A stretch of DNA of 22,558 nucleotides from a virus. The translations under genes were made by a program, and so were the position numbers. Below the pieces are notes generated by a model, which saw only the letters and a program-made list of their open reading frames with translations, was not told the DNA's origin and searched no databases. Positions 5,594 through 22,558 of the stretch are shown here, in pieces; the stretch's first letter is position 1, and each line of letters begins with the position of its first letter. The stretch spans positions 1 to 22,558 of IMG/VR virus record IMGVR_UViG_3300025853_000723. The stretch is one strand, 5' to 3'.

Positions 5594-5849
5594 TAGGGAT
5601 GTTCTGGAATATCTGGAGTCAAGGCTCGGGAAGAATGCATCTTTTACACTGGCACGTAATTATCTGGAGGACATGATGACAGAGTATTCACTCAATATCA
5701 TGGTACCTGAACCGGATGAGATGGTGATCCAGTTGATAAAGGATCATTATACACTAAGTACATATTATTCACAACTCATACAAAAATTTGAAGAAAATGA
5801 GAACGATCACAGTAAAAACAGGAAGCGGAGTACAGAGCTATCAGTCTAA
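5559..5849 (+). CDS. small hypothetical protein before the Ubl gene
   Basis: 96 aa, starting 35 bp inside the resolvase gene and ending 53 bp inside the Ubl gene. The sequence is predicted mostly helical (VLEYLESRLGKNASFTLARN, then DEMVIQLIKDHYTLSTYYSQ), with a charged, asparagine-rich tail. No motif is recognised. Because it overlaps both neighbours in other frames, its translation is probably coupled to the Ubl. Possible association with the Ubl pathway is guesswork from position. Confidence 0.6.
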   Translation: MDTLRIANLGLDRDVLEYLESRLGKNASFTLARNYLEDMMTEYSLNIMVPEPDEMVIQLIKDHYTLSTYYSQLIQKFEENENDHSKNRKRSTELSV

Positions 5850-6015
5850 TGCAACAACCTTGGCAGAACTTTCTGCAGAAACAGGAGTTGACTTTACAGG
5901 TCAGTCAGTAATTGCCAAGGAGGCAAGACTGATGATGGATGATCTGAGTACACCGTTACCTACAGGGAATATCACCCTCGTTGCCAGCGCTTCCCGTATG
6001 AAGGCAGGCGCTTAA
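5797..6015 (+). CDS. ubiquitin-like beta-grasp protein (Ubl)
   Basis: 72 aa from the ATG at 5797; a TTG three codons upstream is also in frame. The order of predicted elements fits a beta-grasp fold: strand TITVKT (3-8), turn, strand VQSYQS (12-17), helix TTLAELSAETG (20-30), strand QSVIAKEA (36-43), a loop with LPTG, and a last strand NITLVASASR (58-67). The start (MRTITVKTGSG) resembles the first hairpin of ubiquitin. The C-terminus is flexible and ends Lys-Ala-Gly-Ala, so Gly71 is one residue from the end, as in a Ubl precursor that needs trimming. E2-like, JAMM and E1-like genes follow at 6084-8713. Fold is inferred from pattern and context; ThiS/MoaD-like sulfur carriage is the main alternative. 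Confidence 0.68.
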   Translation: MRTITVKTGSGVQSYQSNATTLAELSAETGVDFTGQSVIAKEARLMMDDLSTPLPTGNITLVASASRMKAGA

Positions 6016-6020
6016 AATGA

Positions 6021-6055
6021 AAGGAGAGAGAGGCGAAAGCCTCTCTTTCTTTTTC
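6021..6055 (+). terminator. rho-independent terminator after the Ubl gene
   Basis: AGAGAGGC (6027-6034), a GAAA tetraloop and GCCTCTCT (6039-6046) form an 8-bp perfect stem, extendable through a G-T wobble and further A-T pairs. The T-rich run CTTTTTCTT follows. It sits 5 bp after the Ubl stop and closes the replication operon. Confidence 0.88.
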
Positions 6056-6083
6056 TTATTCACTAACTATAAATAAATATACC

Positions 6084-6986
6084 ATGGTGATAACACAGGC
6101 CGTCACGGCCGGATCCATAAAAGAATGTGCTCTGCATTTCTTTGATCATGTGGAAGTATCCTCCAATTTTGTGTACATACTGTTTCCGGAGCTTACAGTT
6201 ACCAATGAGCTGGATCTCAGTATAGACATACAGGATCTTGTAGTAAAGTTGGAGTACAGTATACTCAGGGACAATAAGGTCATGTTTGAAAACATGCAGG
6301 GACTGCGTATACAGACCGATCTTACTCAGTTTCTGGGATATTATTCCCACTCCCATCTTCCTAAATTCGGACTTGATGACTTTAACAGATTCTGTCTTGG
6401 AAGTGATACTCCTATGAAAGCTGCTTTGGATACTACAGAAGTTGACATGGATGTTGTATTCGGTCTTGTGAACTCATTCGTACGTAATGAATCAGTAGCA
6501 GGAGTACCTCATGTAAAACTGGATACTGTACTGGACCTGAACAATGTATTGTCACATCTCTTAAAAAGTAAGGTCCCTACCATACGTCACATATCAAGTA
6601 TTGCAAAGGATATGTTGGAGAATGGTAATCTTTCCTATCAGTATGTGTCTGACGGTATTCTTCCTAGAATAAAGATACGGTCAGGAGATGATGAGAGGTT
6701 GCTGAGACTTTTAGTGGACAATGGACTGGGAACAGACATGTCCTCTTATAGTATGTTACAGCTCATGCAAAAGATACACTTATCTGTTCGGGAAGAGGAT
6801 GGAGAGTATCATCTCGGTCTTTTGAATCCCTTTACCATTGACGGTGTGACAATTGACAGAAAACATATAATCCCTACTGAGGAGGAACTGTCCCACATCA
6901 GAGACAATGTGAGTTCAGGGGCTGAAGATGTAAAAAAGGCCTACAAGTATTTAGAAACATTCTTAAATAAATATCTTAATCTATGA
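6084..6986 (+). CDS. E2-like ubiquitin-conjugating-type protein (predicted)
   Basis: 300 aa. Residues 28-95 show strands in the order expected of a UBC/RWD-type fold (NFVYILFPELTV, LVVKLEYSI, LRIQTDL), leading to YYSHSHLP (86-93) and, 13 residues after the second His, FCLG (103-106). An HxH followed by Cys-Leu-Gly matches the pattern of prokaryotic E2-like families in Ubl cassettes (HPH...CLG), where Cys104 would carry the thioester-linked Ubl and the His residues shape the site. Residues 120-300 are a helical extension I do not recognise. The start follows an A/T-rich leader after the terminator. The stop overlaps the JAMM gene by 4 bp (ATGA). E2 identity rests on motif and neighbourhood, so it remains a prediction. 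Confidence 0.6.
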   Translation: MVITQAVTAGSIKECALHFFDHVEVSSNFVYILFPELTVTNELDLSIDIQDLVVKLEYSILRDNKVMFENMQGLRIQTDLTQFLGYYSHSHLPKFGLDDFNRFCLGSDTPMKAALDTTEVDMDVVFGLVNSFVRNESVAGVPHVKLDTVLDLNNVLSHLLKSKVPTIRHISSIAKDMLENGNLSYQYVSDGILPRIKIRSGDDERLLRLLVDNGLGTDMSSYSMLQLMQKIHLSVREEDGEYHLGLLNPFTIDGVTIDRKHIIPTEEELSHIRDNVSSGAEDVKKAYKYLETFLNKYLNL

Positions 6987-8005
6987 AACACTTTGAAATG
7001 CCCCAAGGTTATACCTTGATGATCAGCCCATCGCTGATGAATGAGATAGCGTATCTTCATTCAAAGAATGACAATAAGGAATGGTGCGGTGTACTGTTCT
7101 ACGAAGAAGTATCAGGATCCATCTTTACAGATGATCTTGTGCTACGTGCAAAACACATCTATCTTCTTGACATAGGAAGTTCTTCATATACAGAAGGCTC
7201 CATTGATCTTGAACTCCTTGATTTCTTTGAAGAGGTTCCTGAAGCTGAAGACATGAAACGTGGATTCATTCACACTCATCATGGTATGAAAGCATACTTC
7301 TCAGGAACTGACATGTCTGAGCTGTATGACAATACCAAGTACTATGATTACTATCTGTCCCTCATAGTCAACCATGCTACCCTGTTTGTTACCAAGATAG
7401 GCATGGAGGCTGAGATAGGAGTGACAGGAACTGCATTTAAAATAGAGAACCCACCTATTCTTACATTCGATGGTAAGGTGGAGTTTGATATTCCTGTCAA
7501 CCTTGCAGCAAGACAGTTCAAGCTGTCAAAGCCTGTGGTACAGGGATATCAGAGTTCAAGACAGTTGTACAAGGACACTCCGTTCGAGGATCATATCTCT
7601 CCTAACCAGATGACCATCTTTGATGTGCCTGGAGTGGAGTCTGAGTTTGATAAATATCCGGAGCATATGTACAGCATCAATGCCTTTACTGCAGTACGTA
7701 AGTTGATAGGTCTGCCGATAAGTAAGGAGTTTACAAAGGAAAATATCATAAATGCGTTGAAACCCTTTGAAGCTTTTTCTGAAGAAACAAAGCGGGCCAT
7801 CATTGATACTGAGATAGAGCATTCTATCGGTCTTATTTTACAAGAGGTCTATGGTACTCAGGAAGAGGATGTGGTTTTAGGATGTAATGAGATCTATAAC
7901 GTGATGGCGGATTATTTTCCAGAAGACAGAGAGCTCAAGGATCATCCGTTCGTACAAGAAGTGATAAATACACTTTTTGAAGAAATAGGAGTATTGACCA
8001 TGTAA
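6983..8005 (+). CDS. JAMM/JAB-domain metalloprotease (Ubl isopeptidase/processing)
   Basis: 340 aa. The JAMM zinc site is complete: Glu33 in KEWCGVLFY, His97-x-His99 in FIHTHH, then seven residues, Ser107 and Asp110 (SGTD), i.e. E...HxHx7SxxD. In this family the two His and the Asp bind Zn2+ and the Glu activates water, cleaving the bond after a Ubl glycine. The JAB domain occupies about residues 10-150. Residues 150-340 are an unrecognised extension that may bind the substrate or partner enzymes. It is translationally coupled to the E2-like gene (ATGA overlap) and lies 30 bp before the E1-like gene. It could both trim the Ala from the Ubl C-terminus and remove the Ubl from targets. The JAMM call is very secure. 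Confidence 0.9.
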   Translation: MKHFEMPQGYTLMISPSLMNEIAYLHSKNDNKEWCGVLFYEEVSGSIFTDDLVLRAKHIYLLDIGSSSYTEGSIDLELLDFFEEVPEAEDMKRGFIHTHHGMKAYFSGTDMSELYDNTKYYDYYLSLIVNHATLFVTKIGMEAEIGVTGTAFKIENPPILTFDGKVEFDIPVNLAARQFKLSKPVVQGYQSSRQLYKDTPFEDHISPNQMTIFDVPGVESEFDKYPEHMYSINAFTAVRKLIGLPISKEFTKENIINALKPFEAFSEETKRAIIDTEIEHSIGLILQEVYGTQEEDVVLGCNEIYNVMADYFPEDRELKDHPFVQEVINTLFEEIGVLTM

Positions 8006-8035
8006 TTACAGTAACTTATAATAAAATCATATAAA

Positions 8036-8713
8036 ATGAATGATACACGTTATGGTAGATTCAAGGACAGCCCATGGTTCGGTAAATCCCTCCCTCCTAT
8101 TATTGTAGGAGGTGCGGGCGGTATCGGATCATGGTTCATGATCCTTCTGATGCGTACAGGAGATCATCAGGTAATGCTGATGGATCCTGATATTGTAGAG
8201 GAGAGCAATCTTGCAGGTCAGTTCTACACTGAAGCTGATATAGGTAAAACAAAGGTGGCTGCTGTCTCTGATCATGTTGATAGGATGTGCGGTAATAAGC
8301 CTGGGCTGTTTTACAATACTGAAAGATATCTTCCAGGATCTGAGGCTACTCCCATCATGGTCTCATGTTTTGATAACATGCAGGCCAGACAGGACATGTT
8401 CGCCAACTGGGAGAAGCAGGACAACCCTAAGCTCTTTATAGATGGTAGGATGAATGCTGAGGCGTTTCAGTTATTTGCAGTGACCCCTAAGAATGCAGAG
8501 AGGTATAAAGAACATCTGTATGATGATTCCTCTGTACCGGATCTTGCATGCAGTTACAAGGCAACTTCTCACACTGCAGCCATGCTTGCAGGTAAGATGG
8601 TCGCTGTTTTGAACAATTGGATATGCATTGATCATGGATCTGATGCGACCAGGGAGTTGCCTTTCTTCATAAAGTATGATCTTTCAATGATGATGGAAAC
8701 CGTAGAGTTATGA
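8036..8713 (+). CDS. ThiF/E1-like Ubl-activating enzyme
   Basis: 225 aa, the size of a minimal adenylation domain. The Rossmann nucleotide-binding loop is VGGAGGIGS (24-32). Acidic MDPDIVEESNLAGQFY (49-64) matches the E1 signature DxD..(S)NxxRQ except that the Arg is Gly61. ADIGKTK (67-73) supplies the conserved lysines, and CFDNMQARQD (111-120) matches the conserved Asp-Asn...Arg strand. DLACSYKATSH (169-179) gives Cys172 at the position of the usual catalytic-Cys or CxxC region, followed by the hydrophobic helix typical of ThiF/MoeB proteins. Expected reaction: ATP-dependent adenylation of the Ubl C-terminal glycine and possibly thioester formation on Cys172. The genomic context argues for conjugation over cofactor sulfuration. 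Confidence 0.9.
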   Translation: MNDTRYGRFKDSPWFGKSLPPIIVGGAGGIGSWFMILLMRTGDHQVMLMDPDIVEESNLAGQFYTEADIGKTKVAAVSDHVDRMCGNKPGLFYNTERYLPGSEATPIMVSCFDNMQARQDMFANWEKQDNPKLFIDGRMNAEAFQLFAVTPKNAERYKEHLYDDSSVPDLACSYKATSHTAAMLAGKMVAVLNNWICIDHGSDATRELPFFIKYDLSMMMETVEL

Positions 8714-9432
8714 GAATAATACACAATAAAAGCAATAAGAAGGTGATACGGTCCATGCCGGTCACAGGTTGGCCTGTAGAACATAGAGTGATTGATGGTT
8801 ATATCTATGGATTCTCAAACTCAGTACCTCTGTTTGAGATGAAGTACAACACTTCAGCTAGATTCATTCCTCTTGATGCCATTATTCAAGGGTCAAGCTC
8901 CATAAGCTGTAAGATCATACACAGTTATGGAAAGAAACGTAAGGATATAATGGATCTTGTAAATGATCATGTGGGAAATGATGTTGCCAACTATATGATG
9001 AGCAGTAGAGCTCCTTATGATGATACTCTGTTCCTTAAGGATGGGGTCATGTACAGACATAAGGATGATGTTGTTATCCCACTGTTCGGATTATTCATAA
9101 AGAACAATACTACGAACAGGATATCCATTAAGAAGGATGTTGCCATCAACGCTGCAATAGGTAGCTCTGTCATCAATGTTCCGCATGACTCAGTACTGTA
9201 TGTTCATCCGCTATGCCTTACAAAAGGTACAAAGGAGGAGTATACTTTCGGACCACATGTGAGAAAATTGAAAAAGACCTTTGAAAGACTTGAGTATTCT
9301 GAGGATCTGAGTATATTTGACGACATGTTCGATCACAGGATCAAGGCCCCTAAGGGATTTGGCGAGTTTGAACAGTTCAACAGTAAAGTAAATACACACT
9401 TAAAACAACTAATAAATGAAATCTATGAATGA
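8710..9432 (+). CDS. unknown protein coupled to the E1-like gene
   Basis: 240 aa, starting at an ATGA overlap with the E1-like gene, so probably made in step with it. It appears alpha/beta and soluble, with no signal peptide or membrane segment. A notable short motif is YVHPLCLTKG (164-173), a His-Pro..Cys-Leu that is superficially like an E2 site but lacks the surrounding strand pattern. The C-terminal third is helical and basic (VRKLKKTFERLEY). I do not recognise the family. Its fixed place in the cassette makes it a candidate accessory or target-recruiting (E3-like) factor, by association only. Confidence 0.8.
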   Translation: MRIIHNKSNKKVIRSMPVTGWPVEHRVIDGYIYGFSNSVPLFEMKYNTSARFIPLDAIIQGSSSISCKIIHSYGKKRKDIMDLVNDHVGNDVANYMMSSRAPYDDTLFLKDGVMYRHKDDVVIPLFGLFIKNNTTNRISIKKDVAINAAIGSSVINVPHDSVLYVHPLCLTKGTKEEYTFGPHVRKLKKTFERLEYSEDLSIFDDMFDHRIKAPKGFGEFEQFNSKVNTHLKQLINEIYE

Positions 9433-16903: not shown

Positions 16904-19900
16904 TTAGTTTGCTAGAACTTCTTCTATCAATTGTTCTGTGATCGTTTCCTCTGTTTCGTAGATCGATGGGTTGAACAGTCCTGCTACATTCATTACCTGA
17001 TTGAGCAGTGGTATCTGCTTAGAGGTATAGTACAACATAGGAGTTGTGTCCCTTCTTGAGTTTTCTCCTAATAGCAGGTCTCTTGTTTCATCTACACCAT
17101 TGGATATTATTTTATCTATACTCTTTATTAAGGACATTACCGGGAATGGAAACTTTGCAAGTTCTACTACAGATTTTGGAGAATGTGGGAATGAAAGTTC
17201 AACAGATGTTCTTTTCAGCATCAGGAACAGATTTCTTGTTATTATGTTGTTCTCATCAGGATCATCCCAATTTAGTCCTGCTGATAGGAACAATACCATT
17301 GCACCAAGAGCTGCGGCCATCCTGGCCTCTATTATAGCTCCCCTCATCTTATCTTCCATAAGCTGGATAAAATCCTGCTTTGTGAATCTACCTCTGAGTT
17401 GTGGGTTTATTTCCAGGAACTCCTGATACTTCTTTTCAGCATACTCTCCCTTTAATTTACCTTGATAGTAGTCCAACATGAGAGGCATGGTGGATATCAT
17501 TACATTTTTCAGGTTTTCAAGTCCCGGTGCTATTCCCTGTTTGAACATCATTCCTAAAAATACTTTGTATCTACCTATTTCAAGGTCATCAAGTATTGCA
17601 TCGTATTTTATATCTCCAAACCTTGACTGCACTATACCAGGCATCCATGTCCTGAACTTCATTGCCATTTGAAACAGAATGTTTCCTTGCATTGCAGCTC
17701 TCTGCTCTTCAGAGATGGATCCTTTTACATTGAATGCTACCTTTCTTGTACGGTTACGTAGAGTAGTGAACAGTGATGGATTCTCTTTGAATATGTCCTT
17801 ACCATTGTGTATGATGCTCAGCTTTCCCTTTTCATTTTTGAACTCCATGTCCATGATGGATGTGAAGTCTCCTTTGGCCCTGTCACGTCTTACCACTTTA
17901 CCGGTACTGTCTACACCATGGCTTTTTAGTAGAGATATGAGGATCTTGTTGTCAATGGCATCATCACCAAGTCTGTGAAGCACAAATGCATTTCTCCAGG
18001 TCATGAACTGTTTGCCCCATGATGATGAGGTCTTTTCAGCTTCCTCATATGTAAGATTTCTTGTAGATGGTCTGAAAAAGGCAACAGCATGTGCAGCTTT
18101 TATCTTATCATCTGTCATATCATCCTCTGCAGTGAACTCTGCAGATCTTATGATAGGTATTATCCTGTCAGCGTATTTAAGATCTTCCTGATTGAACACA
18201 CGCCCTTCACCTGCAAGGAATTTGAGGTTTGCCTTTGCTCCCTGATAAGATGCAAAACCCAGAGGTACGTTAAGTGCAAGTGCTTTGAGAGATAGATAGG
18301 AATGGAACTTATTAAGTAGTTTCTGTCCTGCTACTCCTGCAAATTCCACATCGGATCCTTTCTTTCCATATAGTAGGAAATCCACATGTCTATCGAACAG
18401 AGCCACTGTATCGTTACTGATGCCTATACGCTCAGCTATCTTTCCCATGAGTTTATCCTTGATAGGACGACCGAACTCATCTACTACAGTTTCGTTGACA
18501 TCTCCGTTGACGAGTATTTCCCTTAATGTGAGTACATCCTCTTCAATATTCTTCATCTCAGCAAATCTATGCACTGAGTTTGTAAGAAGTATCAATGAAG
18601 ACGTCAGGTCCACTGACTTTACATTCCTTCCTTTCTTGTACTCTGCTGCAGCTATTGCAGTGTCAGTTGCAGTTTTCAATGCATTCTGAAAATCCCTACT
18701 TGTAATACTTTTTTGTTTTTGCTTGAACTCCTCTTCCAGTTTTATTCTGGTAGTTGATTCTATCTGCTTTTGTTCTTTAGGAGATAACTTTATTCTCATC
18801 TCATCAGTATACAACAGAGGTATACTTCTTTTTCTTTCACCGGTTTCTGGATCTGTCCTACCTACTACTTCATCCTGTTCACGGATCTGCAGATCATACT
18901 TAAAGGCATTCCACAGCTCTTTTACCCCTTCAACCGGTCCCAACTCCATTATCTTATCGGTCATTGACTGAGATACATTTGCAATGAAGTTTCTTTTGAT
19001 CTTTGTCTCAGAACCTACAAGAGAGTCAAACTTCTCGTTCAGACCGGTGTACATCTCATAATAATCTTTCAGGGCCTGATTCCCTGATTGATTCATAAGA
19101 CGGTACAACTCTGATGCATATTGTCCTGACTCTACATTAGGTTGAAGGAATGCAGATGTCAGATATGCACTTTTATTTTTGTTAGGGTTATGCTGTTTTT
19201 CAAAGGTCTCTTTTGCATCCTTTACCTTTTGATCAAGTCTCTTTTTAAAGTCAGCGTCACTTTCTTTGAACCCCTTTCTCATATTGAAAAAGGCTGCAGC
19301 ATCAAAAGCCGGATCATTGTAGATGGCAAGCTCCTGATCTCTGGCCTCCTGATATTTCTTTTCGTTGAATGTAGTATTGGTCTCAAACCATTTTACATCC
19401 TTATTCTTTTTGGCCTTTTCCCTATCATCATAGAACTCCTGTCTTGCAGGCGTTACCAGTGACATGTTCTTTTTATTTATCATCATGTCGAACACTTCCT
19501 GCAAAGACCTTCCACTTGACTTTGCCCATGCCTTTAAGGCCTCATGTTTTTCCTGGATCTCTCTGATATCATCAAAGGTATTGTTCTCTGCAGCATCCCT
19601 TGCCTGTGTGAACAGTTGAGTGAATCTCTGAAATACTGGAGAATCCACTTCAGCTACTCCTAAGAAGGCCCTTCCCATTACTCCAGGCTTCTTACCTGTA
19701 TGTCTCAGGTCTATTTCGTCTCCTGCCTCCTCATTCATACGGTCGAACAACATTCCTTCCAGAGTGCTTACCATATTATTGATCTGACTTCCTACGTATA
19801 AGGCCTCACTTTTATCAAGGATACCTTGAAGCTCTCCAGACTTCAGAAGTTTTTTAAGCTCTTTCTCTGTTTTACCCTTTAAGGCTACAAACTCATCTGA

Positions 19901-21277
19901 GTTAGGATCCACTGCCTTTATTATCTCTCCAAAGAACTGCAGTTCGTTGATGTAGTTTCTGATGTCTCCGGCAGAAAGATATGATCTTGACCCTTTTTTG
20001 ATCACATTCATTTTCTTTGTGATCTCTTCAATGGTATTGGACGCCATCTTGGTGACATCCTTTACATCATCATAGAGTCTGAGTGCCTGCATTGCAGTAT
20101 CTATCTGATTGAGTTTGATCTCTATCAGTTTACGTGACTTTTTATTTGAAGTGGATCTGTAGTCTGACAACAGCTTTGCTCTTTGACCTTCCAATCTTTT
20201 GATGGCATTGTCTGTAAGTTTCTTTCCAGTGACCTCTCCAGCAACCGGTACAGGATCAAGTGTTCTTGTACCTATGGTACCTGCCATGTTTATGGCTTTA
20301 ACTCTGTCTGCAATGACAAGCTTGTTCTGTTTTTTGTCAAATACCTTATAGTCGACTCCAATAGGTATGATACGTGACTCTCGAAGGTCTTCAATACCGA
20401 GTTGACTCTTTAGCATTTCCTTGTAGTTGCTCAACTGAATGTTCCACTCAGTGATCTTACTACTGTTCACCACATTCCTACCCTCATCAAGAGCGGACTT
20501 TGAAGTGTACATGGTCTTGAAGTCAAGTATTCCCACCTGACCATTGGAGTATACTATGACAGCATCTATTGTACCGGCAAGGTCTTTGAACTTGTCATGC
20601 ACAACATGCTCTGTAAGTATGATGGGTTTTTTATCAGGATCTATTGTTTCCTGGGTCTTGATGATATTATCATACAGCTCACGCACACCTTTATCAAGAT
20701 TAAGCATTGTCTTATTGTCAATGCTCTTTACCCACTTAGAATCTATACCTGCAGATACCAATGCCTTTTCAACCTCAGATATCATTTCAGCATGGGACAT
20801 TTTCTTTATACCGGTAAAGTGCTTGAACATGTTCTCCACTAACATGTGTACAGTTGTACCGATGTCTGCTGCAGTAGTATCACTGCTCGAGTATGCTCCT
20901 ATCTCATCACGGTATTTCTTTACCAGATCTGAAACACGGTTTGCTATTACTGTAGAGGTTTCCATGTCTTTGTAACCTTCAGGAGTTTTGACTGCTGTCT
21001 GATTTACAAGTTTTTTCAGTACCTCGACCTGAAGCTCAACTCCTTCAGGATCTGCTTCCAGTATGGCATCTACCACAGGCTCTCCGTTCTCATCCCTGGC
21101 ACCTTCATACTTATCTATGAATGAAGGTACATATGCAAGTAACCATTTGTCCAATGCTACTTCAGCATCCCCTGTCTTTTCTACAAGATCCTTATACAGT
21201 TTAGAGGAGTTTCCGTTATCAGCAAAGACCCCCTCTATGATCTGGCTGTTACTGTTTCTTACTATTGAGCAACTCAT
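16904..21277 (-). CDS. giant multidomain protein with N-terminal PD-(D/E)XK nuclease domain
   Basis: 1457 aa. Residues about 135-290 form a RecB/Cas4-type nuclease: DIGTTVHMLVE (138-148, the GxxxH motif with His144), TEHVVHDK with Glu223, LAGTIDAVIV (Asp238), GILDFKT (Asp252, Lys254) and WNIQLSNYKEML (Gln281, Tyr285). Residues about 20-75 contain KYEGARDENGEPV, a wording that recurs in large polyvalent phage proteins. The middle is highly charged and helical (about 370-870). Near 1318-1338 lies a hydrophobic stretch (AAALGAMVLFLSAGLNW) able to span a membrane. There is no polymerase-type DxDGD motif. Size, membrane segment and position in the leftward arm suggest a virion protein injected with the DNA; that is inference. 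Its ATG overlaps the upstream gene's stop by 4 bp. Confidence 0.82.
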   Translation of the reverse strand: MSCSIVRNSNSQIIEGVFADNGNSSKLYKDLVEKTGDAEVALDKWLLAYVPSFIDKYEGARDENGEPVVDAILEADPEGVELQVEVLKKLVNQTAVKTPEGYKDMETSTVIANRVSDLVKKYRDEIGAYSSSDTTAADIGTTVHMLVENMFKHFTGIKKMSHAEMISEVEKALVSAGIDSKWVKSIDNKTMLNLDKGVRELYDNIIKTQETIDPDKKPIILTEHVVHDKFKDLAGTIDAVIVYSNGQVGILDFKTMYTSKSALDEGRNVVNSSKITEWNIQLSNYKEMLKSQLGIEDLRESRIIPIGVDYKVFDKKQNKLVIADRVKAINMAGTIGTRTLDPVPVAGEVTGKKLTDNAIKRLEGQRAKLLSDYRSTSNKKSRKLIEIKLNQIDTAMQALRLYDDVKDVTKMASNTIEEITKKMNVIKKGSRSYLSAGDIRNYINELQFFGEIIKAVDPNSDEFVALKGKTEKELKKLLKSGELQGILDKSEALYVGSQINNMVSTLEGMLFDRMNEEAGDEIDLRHTGKKPGVMGRAFLGVAEVDSPVFQRFTQLFTQARDAAENNTFDDIREIQEKHEALKAWAKSSGRSLQEVFDMMINKKNMSLVTPARQEFYDDREKAKKNKDVKWFETNTTFNEKKYQEARDQELAIYNDPAFDAAAFFNMRKGFKESDADFKKRLDQKVKDAKETFEKQHNPNKNKSAYLTSAFLQPNVESGQYASELYRLMNQSGNQALKDYYEMYTGLNEKFDSLVGSETKIKRNFIANVSQSMTDKIMELGPVEGVKELWNAFKYDLQIREQDEVVGRTDPETGERKRSIPLLYTDEMRIKLSPKEQKQIESTTRIKLEEEFKQKQKSITSRDFQNALKTATDTAIAAAEYKKGRNVKSVDLTSSLILLTNSVHRFAEMKNIEEDVLTLREILVNGDVNETVVDEFGRPIKDKLMGKIAERIGISNDTVALFDRHVDFLLYGKKGSDVEFAGVAGQKLLNKFHSYLSLKALALNVPLGFASYQGAKANLKFLAGEGRVFNQEDLKYADRIIPIIRSAEFTAEDDMTDDKIKAAHAVAFFRPSTRNLTYEEAEKTSSSWGKQFMTWRNAFVLHRLGDDAIDNKILISLLKSHGVDSTGKVVRRDRAKGDFTSIMDMEFKNEKGKLSIIHNGKDIFKENPSLFTTLRNRTRKVAFNVKGSISEEQRAAMQGNILFQMAMKFRTWMPGIVQSRFGDIKYDAILDDLEIGRYKVFLGMMFKQGIAPGLENLKNVMISTMPLMLDYYQGKLKGEYAEKKYQEFLEINPQLRGRFTKQDFIQLMEDKMRGAIIEARMAAALGAMVLFLSAGLNWDDPDENNIITRNLFLMLKRTSVELSFPHSPKSVVELAKFPFPVMSLIKSIDKIISNGVDETRDLLLGENSRRDTTPMLYYTSKQIPLLNQVMNVAGLFNPSIYETEETITEQLIEEVLAN

Positions 21278-22558
21278 TTACAAGTATCTTCTGTTCCGTT
21301 AGTATCTTTTTTCTCCTTCACTGCCTCCTTTCCTTTAAGTTCTCTGGTATTCTCATCAGCATCTTCAACTATAGGCGCTATGTTCTGAGCCTTATCGAAC
21401 AATGGATTTTCTGATGCAGCTTTACCCTTCATCTTAGTATGCATTGTACCTTTAAGGATCTTTCTGTTTGTAGTATCAGTGAAGAGTTTTACAGCTCCTC
21501 TGCCTTTTAACATCTCATATTGCTTGACATACTGTTCCATAGGTATGAATGTAACTCCTTCAGGCCCTCCAAAGATAGGCATCATTCTGTCTATCAACTC
21601 TCCGTTATTGTCATATGTTTTAGTTGTAACTTTCAATCTTTTAATGAAAACATCCATACCGGCAGCTCTATCAGCCTCAAGTTTCTTTTCATTGTCTTTT
21701 CCAAGATACTCAGGTTTAAGAGCATACTCCAGTTTAAGAGCCACTCTTCCTTTTCTTGGAAGTATGTCAGTGTTGTTGTAGTTACCAAGTACACTGTCAA
21801 AGAATGTATAGTTCTTGAACAGACGTTGACTTTGAATACCCATTGATCTGTATTGATCATATGCATTCTGTACCAGTTCTGAGGTATACTCGGAAGGTAT
21901 GTATTTGGTAAATCCTACTGGATGGTTTCTGAATCCGAACTGTACTATTGCAGTTTTTGCAAGTCTGTCTGCAAAGCTTCTTATTCTTCTGTCATTATGC
22001 GTCATAAGTTCTCTCCAACCATCTATTACATCATCTATGTCTGTAGGCTCCTTAGGCTGATCATACATCAATATCCTATCACCTCCCTCTTCATTGAATA
22101 TAGGAGTAAGTCTGGATATGAATGCATTCTCTTTTGCAAGGTCAGGTAGCTGTTCTTTGAACTTTTTAAGCTGCAGAGCTGATGATGCATTTCCTGATTC
22201 CACATCTGTTACAAGAAGATTTCTTATTTCCTGTGTAAGAGTTGATGTCGAGCCTTTCAATGGCATCAGCGTTACAAGATTATGGATCATGTCATTCATG
22301 AATATGTCCATCATGTTTACCATGGTGTCAAATGACATGAACATGTCCTTGTAGTACTCCTCAAACTGCATTTCAATTGCAGGAGTTGCAAGTGATTTAT
22401 TGAACTCAGGGAAGAACGGTTTGTACATTTCCGGTATGGAATCCACTGATTTTTTGAACTCTTTTAGATAATTACCTTCAGTGAATACTGTATTGTAACC
22501 TTTGATGAAGTTGTTCTTTCTGATCTTTTTCATCTGCCAGTCTCTTATTAAGGTAACT
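21274..22558 (-). CDS. large phage protein, C-terminal part (runs off right edge)
   Basis: The frame is open to the window end (VTLIRDWQ precedes the Met at 22533), so the true start is probably outside. The 427 visible codons begin with a basic segment (KKIRKNNFIKGYN), then helices rich in Met and Phe (EYYKDMFMSFDTMVNMMDIF, MNDMIHNLVTLMP), a mixed alpha/beta centre, and a charged disordered tail (ENTRELKGKEAVKEKKDTNG). The visible Met at 22533 is a possible but unproven start. It is translated just before the 1457-aa protein (ATGA overlap), so the two probably act together. No family recognised; likely structural or ejected. Confidence 0.7.
   Translation of the reverse strand, partial: VTLIRDWQMKKIRKNNFIKGYNTVFTEGNYLKEFKKSVDSIPEMYKPFFPEFNKSLATPAIEMQFEEYYKDMFMSFDTMVNMMDIFMNDMIHNLVTLMPLKGSTSTLTQEIRNLLVTDVESGNASSALQLKKFKEQLPDLAKENAFISRLTPIFNEEGGDRILMYDQPKEPTDIDDVIDGWRELMTHNDRRIRSFADRLAKTAIVQFGFRNHPVGFTKYIPSEYTSELVQNAYDQYRSMGIQSQRLFKNYTFFDSVLGNYNNTDILPRKGRVALKLEYALKPEYLGKDNEKKLEADRAAGMDVFIKRLKVTTKTYDNNGELIDRMMPIFGGPEGVTFIPMEQYVKQYEMLKGRGAVKLFTDTTNRKILKGTMHTKMKGKAASENPLFDKAQNIAPIVEDADENTRELKGKEAVKEKKDTNGTEDTCK

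Follow-up and report, generated by a model that had tools for sequence, protein, structure and literature searches.

A candidate E2-like protein in a putative ubiquitin-like conjugation cassette of Crassvirales and related phages

Work on ubiquitin-like conjugation in bacteria has centred on defence against phages (CBASS Cap2/3, Bil), and eukaryotes steer replication and repair with ubiquitin and SUMO. Here we ask whether a phage could encode such machinery for itself. The question is raised by a 22,558-base IMG/VR virus record, the whole of which is referred to here as the window. A first-pass annotation read one of its products, a 300-residue protein, as a divergent E2-like enzyme with a long helical C-terminal extension. 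We examined the conserved residues of this protein, its predicted structure and its genomic neighbours.

Conserved residues of the E2-like protein

The gene is a complete open reading frame with an ATG start on the plus strand (6084 to 6986). Both motifs from which the annotation started, YSHSHLP and then FCLG at Cys104, are present in its translation: Y87-S88-H89-S90-H91 is encoded at 6342 to 6356 (+), with L92 and P93 continuing the motif to 6362, and F103, C104, L105 and G106 follow downstream, the candidate thioester cysteine Cys104 occupying 6393 to 6395 (+). In a first ten-sequence alignment, the HSH motif, Cys104 and an ES..G.P pattern were all invariant. Scanning IMG/VR with this alignment gave 46 loci. 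Since the scan patterns themselves contained HSH, which biases any count of that motif, loci were recruited a second time through an alignment of the neighbouring E1 gene. This gave 80 loci, and from L070-L143 we obtained 66 non-identical E2 sequences, six of them shared with the first set.

In this motif-independent set C104, H91, G106 and G140 are each found in 66/66 sequences, while S90, E136, S137 and P142 are each found in 65/66. Residue 89 is more variable, being His in 54, Gln in 10 and Phe in two of the 66. Cys104 is likewise invariant in the first-scan set (50/50), and in a 54-member E2 set it is the sole alignment column with more than 50% Cys (54/54). The expectation that this cysteine would be kept among homologues was therefore borne out, and given such conservation the motif is not due to chance. 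The HxH...C arrangement that had been proposed holds only in part: H91 and C104 are invariant, but H89 varies and HxH itself is not the signature. Thus, the conservation suggests H91...C104, and not HxH as such, as the candidate catalytic pair.

The annotation had also judged similarity to known E2s to be low, and the family searches agree, as none of the E2 families in Pfam, NCBIfam and PADLOC matched the protein. Its sole noteworthy match is phrog_15310, a PHROG of unknown function (E 1.8e-5), and no Prok-E2 or UBC model was among the matches listed for 43, and then 54, E2 homologues. A PDB profile search with the E2 alignment returned chance-level matches only. The HPN motif is absent from the family, with Y-x-[H/Q]-S-H in its place; HPN is also missing in several accepted prokaryotic E2s (PMC1779556). 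Neither this E2 nor the candidate modifier described below matches a named family in any library that was searched. Some of the E2 homologues (575-712 aa; L097, L109, L110, L117 and L131) have long N-terminal extensions with no recognised domain.

Predicted structure and the C-terminal extension

The AlphaFold2 model of the full-length protein (38 homologues) has a mean pLDDT of 84.8 and a pTM of 0.78, and that of the core (residues 1-151, 73 homologues) a pLDDT of 91.7 and a pTM of 0.86. The E2-like core, residues 1-150 (6084 to 6533, +), is predicted to comprise a helix (9-17), a four-strand meander (23-25, 29-41, 46-60 and 66-77), a short helix (80-84), the active-site loop with H91 and C104, and two further helices (110-116 and 122-134). 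This alpha-beta4-loop(H91..C104)-alpha-alpha arrangement is the UBC order, as judged by comparing the order of elements and not by superposition. The expected E2-like fold was thus upheld to the extent that the topology of the model is compatible with UBC, but the structure comparison yielded no significant match: Foldseek against the PDB found nothing at E <= 0.001, all E values being above 0.09 for the full model and above 0.16 for the core. Each of the two top-50 lists contained one E2, both non-significant (CdnG-E2 8yjy, E 0.77, TM 0.36 by target; Atg10 4ebr, E 0.73), and a BFVD structure search returned phage homologues alone. Because neither a significant Foldseek match in the PDB nor a match to a Pfam E2 model was obtained, a UBC-type fold is something that we infer from topology, motif and context taken together.

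The region beyond the core, residues 151-300 (6534 to 6983, +), is of mixed alpha/beta character according to the model and the alignment. It had been described as helical, and this is too simple: strands are predicted at 183-187, 194-198, 236-238, 241-252 and 255-262 in addition to helices. The earlier estimate was of about 180 residues past the core; 196 residues follow Cys104 and about 150 the structured core. An extension is found in every homologue (188-280 residues past Cys104) and is less conserved than the core, with a mean majority residue of 0.37 against 0.55. C-terminal extensions occur in some eukaryotic E2s as well. The annotation had suggested that this region might recruit targets and so unite E2 and E3 roles in one chain, an idea for which the analysis gave no specific support.

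The cassette and its genes

The E2-like gene is part of a set with the order Ubl, terminator-like hairpin, E2, JAB, E1 and a protein that we call X, lying between primase and exonuclease/UDG genes. This cassette was seen in more than 100 phage loci, including the cultured phages crAss001 and DAC15 and the Flavobacterium Fpv phages. Searches of phage records by tblastn placed the E2 homologues in Bacteroides crAss-like Steigviridae and in Flavobacterium psychrophilum Fpv phages, and the E1-like neighbour, when used as the query, recovered the same phages more clearly. Nine records (crAss001, Fpv3, cr85_1, cr126_1, cr106_1, DAC15, cr128_1, cr111_1 and frurule) share the order primase, Ubl gene, E2-like gene, JAB, E1 and X, mostly followed by uracil-DNA glycosylase, exonuclease and ribonucleotide reductase. 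In these records the JAB is labelled 'contains metalloprotease domain' and the E1 'thiamine biosynthesis protein ThiF', while the E2-like protein and the Ubl are hypothetical. The E2 homologue of crAss001 is gp78. Thiamine biosynthesis was rejected as the role of the E1, since its companions are E2, JAB and Ubl and include no thiamine genes.

Among the 80 loci recruited through E1, the E1 was found in 80, the JAB in 79, the E2 in 78 and the Ubl in 75, several of the incomplete loci being contigs cut at an end, and the order was always Ubl-E2-JAB-E1. Across 84,980 bacterial and archaeal genomes, E1 relatives were found at three loci, all on MAG contigs, and therefore the cassette looks restricted to phages at the sensitivity of the E1 pattern. 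In L016, L032/L033, L047 and L054 the cassette is interrupted, or the JAB gene split, by gaps of ~1-2 kb, suggesting inserted ORFs or introns. Elsewhere in the window (16904 to 22533), the minus strand, opposite to that of the replication module, carries two large ORFs, one of 419 aa and one of 1457 aa; residues 120-430 of the latter weakly match exonuclease PHROGs (E 0.006).

The candidate modifier is a 72-residue protein ending in ...MKAGA (5797 to 6015, +). The ORF list gives a TTG start at 5788; the ATG at 5797 agrees with homologues. It had no Pfam match, a PDB profile search gave chance-level matches only, and its sequence pattern and context point to a putative beta-grasp fold. Across 50 Ubl homologues Gly71 is invariant and K-S-G occurs in about 90%, the version in the window being K-A-G-A. 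What follows the glycine is not conserved: the short forms usually stop after one further residue (K, R, I, F, E, H, Y or A), and the long forms run on into a tail about 60 to 230 residues long. The invariant glycine with a non-conserved residue or tail behind it implies that a Ubl precursor would be trimmed past Gly71 by the JAB. Such trimming of a precursor by a JAB is known for BilA (PMC11354881). Three of the 50 Ubl tails matched the Pfam SAP domain, and that of cr126_1 contains a ribosomal L7/L12 C-terminal-like domain (Pfam, 5e-12). Long-form genes with tails past K-S-G include L005 5208-5885 and L008 4870-5796. The reading of an upstream gene as a poly-Ubl (225 aa, about 3 x 75) was ruled out, as it consists of one Ubl domain and a non-repeat tail. 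In cr106_1 (L009 4459-5662), and likewise in L053, an HNH endonuclease gene lies within the Ubl gene; the interrupted ORF ends just past K-S-G, and the tail resumes in an ORF of its own on the far side of the HNH ORF.

The interval that separates the Ubl stop from the E2 start contains a GC-rich, terminator-like hairpin (6023 to 6060, +) with a 12-bp stem, a GAAA loop (6035-6038) and a T-rich run after it. Of 107 non-redundant loci, 84 have a hairpin at the equivalent position, and the shuffled controls have none. With a second, slightly altered criterion, the counts were 46/69 after the Ubl, 0/72 after the E2, 3/73 after the JAB and 1/73 after the E1. A terminator scan with stricter stem and T-run rules did not list 6023-6060 on the plus strand. 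Since the sequence of the hairpin varies while its pairing and position are kept, the comparison argues for selection. It is probably a partial terminator that would keep Ubl mRNA above the enzyme transcripts, as a stoichiometric tag requires.

Downstream of the E2 is a JAB/MPN metallopeptidase (6983 to 8005, +) with an intact JAMM motif (HTHHGMKAYFSGTD) and a Pfam Prok-JAB match of 4e-5, just under the cut-off. The HxHx7SxxD pattern is kept in 67/67 JAB homologues, the upstream Glu of the JAMM is conserved at >=90% in a ten-member set, and the PDB relatives are weak JAMM/CSN5 matches. This protein is predicted to perform both Ubl trimming and deconjugation. The following gene encodes a 225-residue E1/ThiF-like adenylating enzyme (8036 to 8713, +; Pfam ThiF 5e-17, PRTRC_ThiF 6e-11). 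Its candidate thioester Cys172, within C-S-Y-K-A-T, is invariant in ten homologues, alongside conserved GxGGIGS and DxD motifs, and the pattern C[ST]x[KR]xT is present in 60/68. In the N-x-x-R-Q motif Gly replaces the usual Arg in all 63 readable homologues, and ATP handling may therefore differ. A promoter-like match (11/12) is located at 7994 to 8022, just upstream of the E1 gene, and is perhaps of a promoter type that Bacteroidota phages do not use. Overlapping the E1 stop is the gene for the fast-evolving, 240-residue protein X (8710 to 9432, +), which has counterparts at the equivalent position in Steigviridae and Fpv phages and was found by profile in 22 of 80 independent loci. No family was recognised for X, and we regard it as a candidate substrate or adaptor.

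Proposed pathway, alternatives and known systems

Taken together, the gene is probably the E2 of a phage-encoded Ubl conjugation cassette consisting of modifier, E1, E2 and trimming protease. This reading is well supported because the cassette is fixed, Cys104 and His91 are invariant, and the AlphaFold2 model follows the UBC order of elements. In the pathway that we propose, the JAB peptidase would cut the modifier after the invariant Gly71; the E1, by analogy with its family, would use ATP to adenylate the C-terminal glycine and then hold the modifier on Cys172. The modifier would next move to Cys104 of the E2-like protein, where His91, to go by its invariance and the model, should lie near the active site. 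The E2 would then hand the modifier to an amine or hydroxyl of a target, no separate E3 being recognised in the cassette, and the JAB could undo the conjugation. The location in the replication module suggests that the likeliest substrates are proteins of replication or recombination, or else an early target in the host. More tentatively, and as an idea that is plausible without yet being probable, Crassvirales and related phages may run their own reversible Ubl tagging during infection with a new modifier and a new E2 family. The C-terminal domain of the E2 would pick the target with no need of a separate E3, and many modifiers would be made with a tail, in some cases SAP-like or L7/L12-like, that the JAB must remove.

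The phages that appear to own a full cassette within their replication module include relatives, available in culture, of the viruses most abundant in the human gut. No literature linking Crassvirales or these phages to ubiquitin-like conjugation was found in a search that left subscription papers and preprints outside its scope, and the Ubl-E2-JAB-E1 kit appears to be previously undescribed in phages. Such a reading would assign roles to several uncharacterised PHROG families and would put right the many phage records that carry the label 'thiamine biosynthesis protein'. The idea is directly testable, as both crAss001, which infects Bacteroides intestinalis, and DAC15, which infects B. thetaiotaomicron, are cultured.

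Three other readings have to be weighed. The cassette could serve sulfur transfer, with the Ubl as a ThiS/MoaD-type carrier on which the E1 makes a thiocarboxylate, the JAB freeing the carrier and the E2-like protein acting as a cysteine-dependent acceptor for a modified nucleotide, tRNA base or cofactor. The E1 does also resemble ThiF and MoeB, the cassette adjoins nucleotide-metabolism genes (RNR, UDG, dUTPase), and JAB-Ubl-E1 sets without an E2 are known from sulfur assimilation operons (PMC1779556). However, the cassette has no recognised sulfurtransferase, rhodanese or cysteine desulfurase, and sulfur-transfer pathways do not have an E2-like partner bearing an invariant His/Cys and the UBC element order, which leaves this reading quite improbable. 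We give only slightly more credence to the 300-residue protein being an unrelated cysteine protein, such as a Ubl-binding scaffold or a different transferase, and not a UBC-fold E2. The Foldseek E values against all solved structures, the lack of any E2 HMM match in about 100 homologues and a motif that reads HSH and not HPN would all fit this. Against it, the topology agrees with the UBC order, as does the position of His and Cys within the loop that follows strand 4, and an E2 appeared, albeit non-significantly, in both Foldseek lists. The likeness to eukaryotic UBC-fold E2s lies in the same features, namely a helix, four strands, an active-site loop with His and then Cys, and helices, whereas the phage protein differs from them in having no HPN and no significant sequence or Foldseek match.

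The remaining reading, unlikely but to be taken more seriously, is that the cassette arose as a phage branch of the plasmid PRTRC operon (Prok-E2_D/PRTRC_B, type 6d of Iyer et al.) and shares its plasmid-maintenance role, with no phage-specific one. The gene order C(Ubl)-B(E2)-A(JAB)-ThiF is identical, both have a small Ubl ending in or near Gly and a mobile-element setting, and profile comparison aligns the E1 with PRTRC_ThiF over about 194 columns (E 2e-16), with a weaker link between the JABs (1e-4). C-x-G is found in both E2s, with H-[AS]-P ahead of it in PRTRC_B. Yet this motif alone aligns, and without significance, when the two E2 profiles are compared; neither the E2 nor the Ubl profile has significant similarity to PRTRC_B or PRTRC_C (1% and 0.1%). 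PF14460 finds PRTRC plasmids and none of the three phage genomes tested, and on these profile tests direct membership in PRTRC_B/Prok-E2_D was rejected. Moreover, type 6d E2s (PRTRC, PF14460) have no His before the Cys and an absolutely conserved His after it (PMC1779556). This is reversed in the phage E2, in which invariant H91 precedes C104 and the conserved residues after the Cys are G106, E136, S137, G140 and P142 (E136, S137 and P142 in 65/66). The PRTRC Ubl usually ends in TKG and a stop codon, while in that of the phages K-S/A-G is followed by a single residue or by a long tail. Beside the phage cassette, which is encoded by lytic-type phages in their replication module, we recognised neither the ParB-related protein of PRTRC nor its proteins E and F.

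The conjugation cassette proposed here can also be set beside other known systems. Lambda-type phages encode TAPI/TAPK, a Ubl with a conserved terminal Gly and a JAB-NlpC peptidase (PMC1779556); these have no E1 or E2 and are found in the tail gene cluster, not in the replication module. BilABCD and type II CBASS Cap2/Cap3 resemble the cassette in having E1, E2 and JAB acting on a C-terminal Gly, but they are bacterial anti-phage defences, in contrast to the present phage-encoded set. The BilB spacing C-x5-E-x-H-x4-H (PMC11354881) is absent from the E2 of the window and from the family alignment, and unlike BilD, an IAD-AAD pseudodimer with a Cys domain, the phage E1 is a single adenylation domain of 225 aa. 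The phage cassette would work like the PRTRC-type operons and may be a distant descendant of them.
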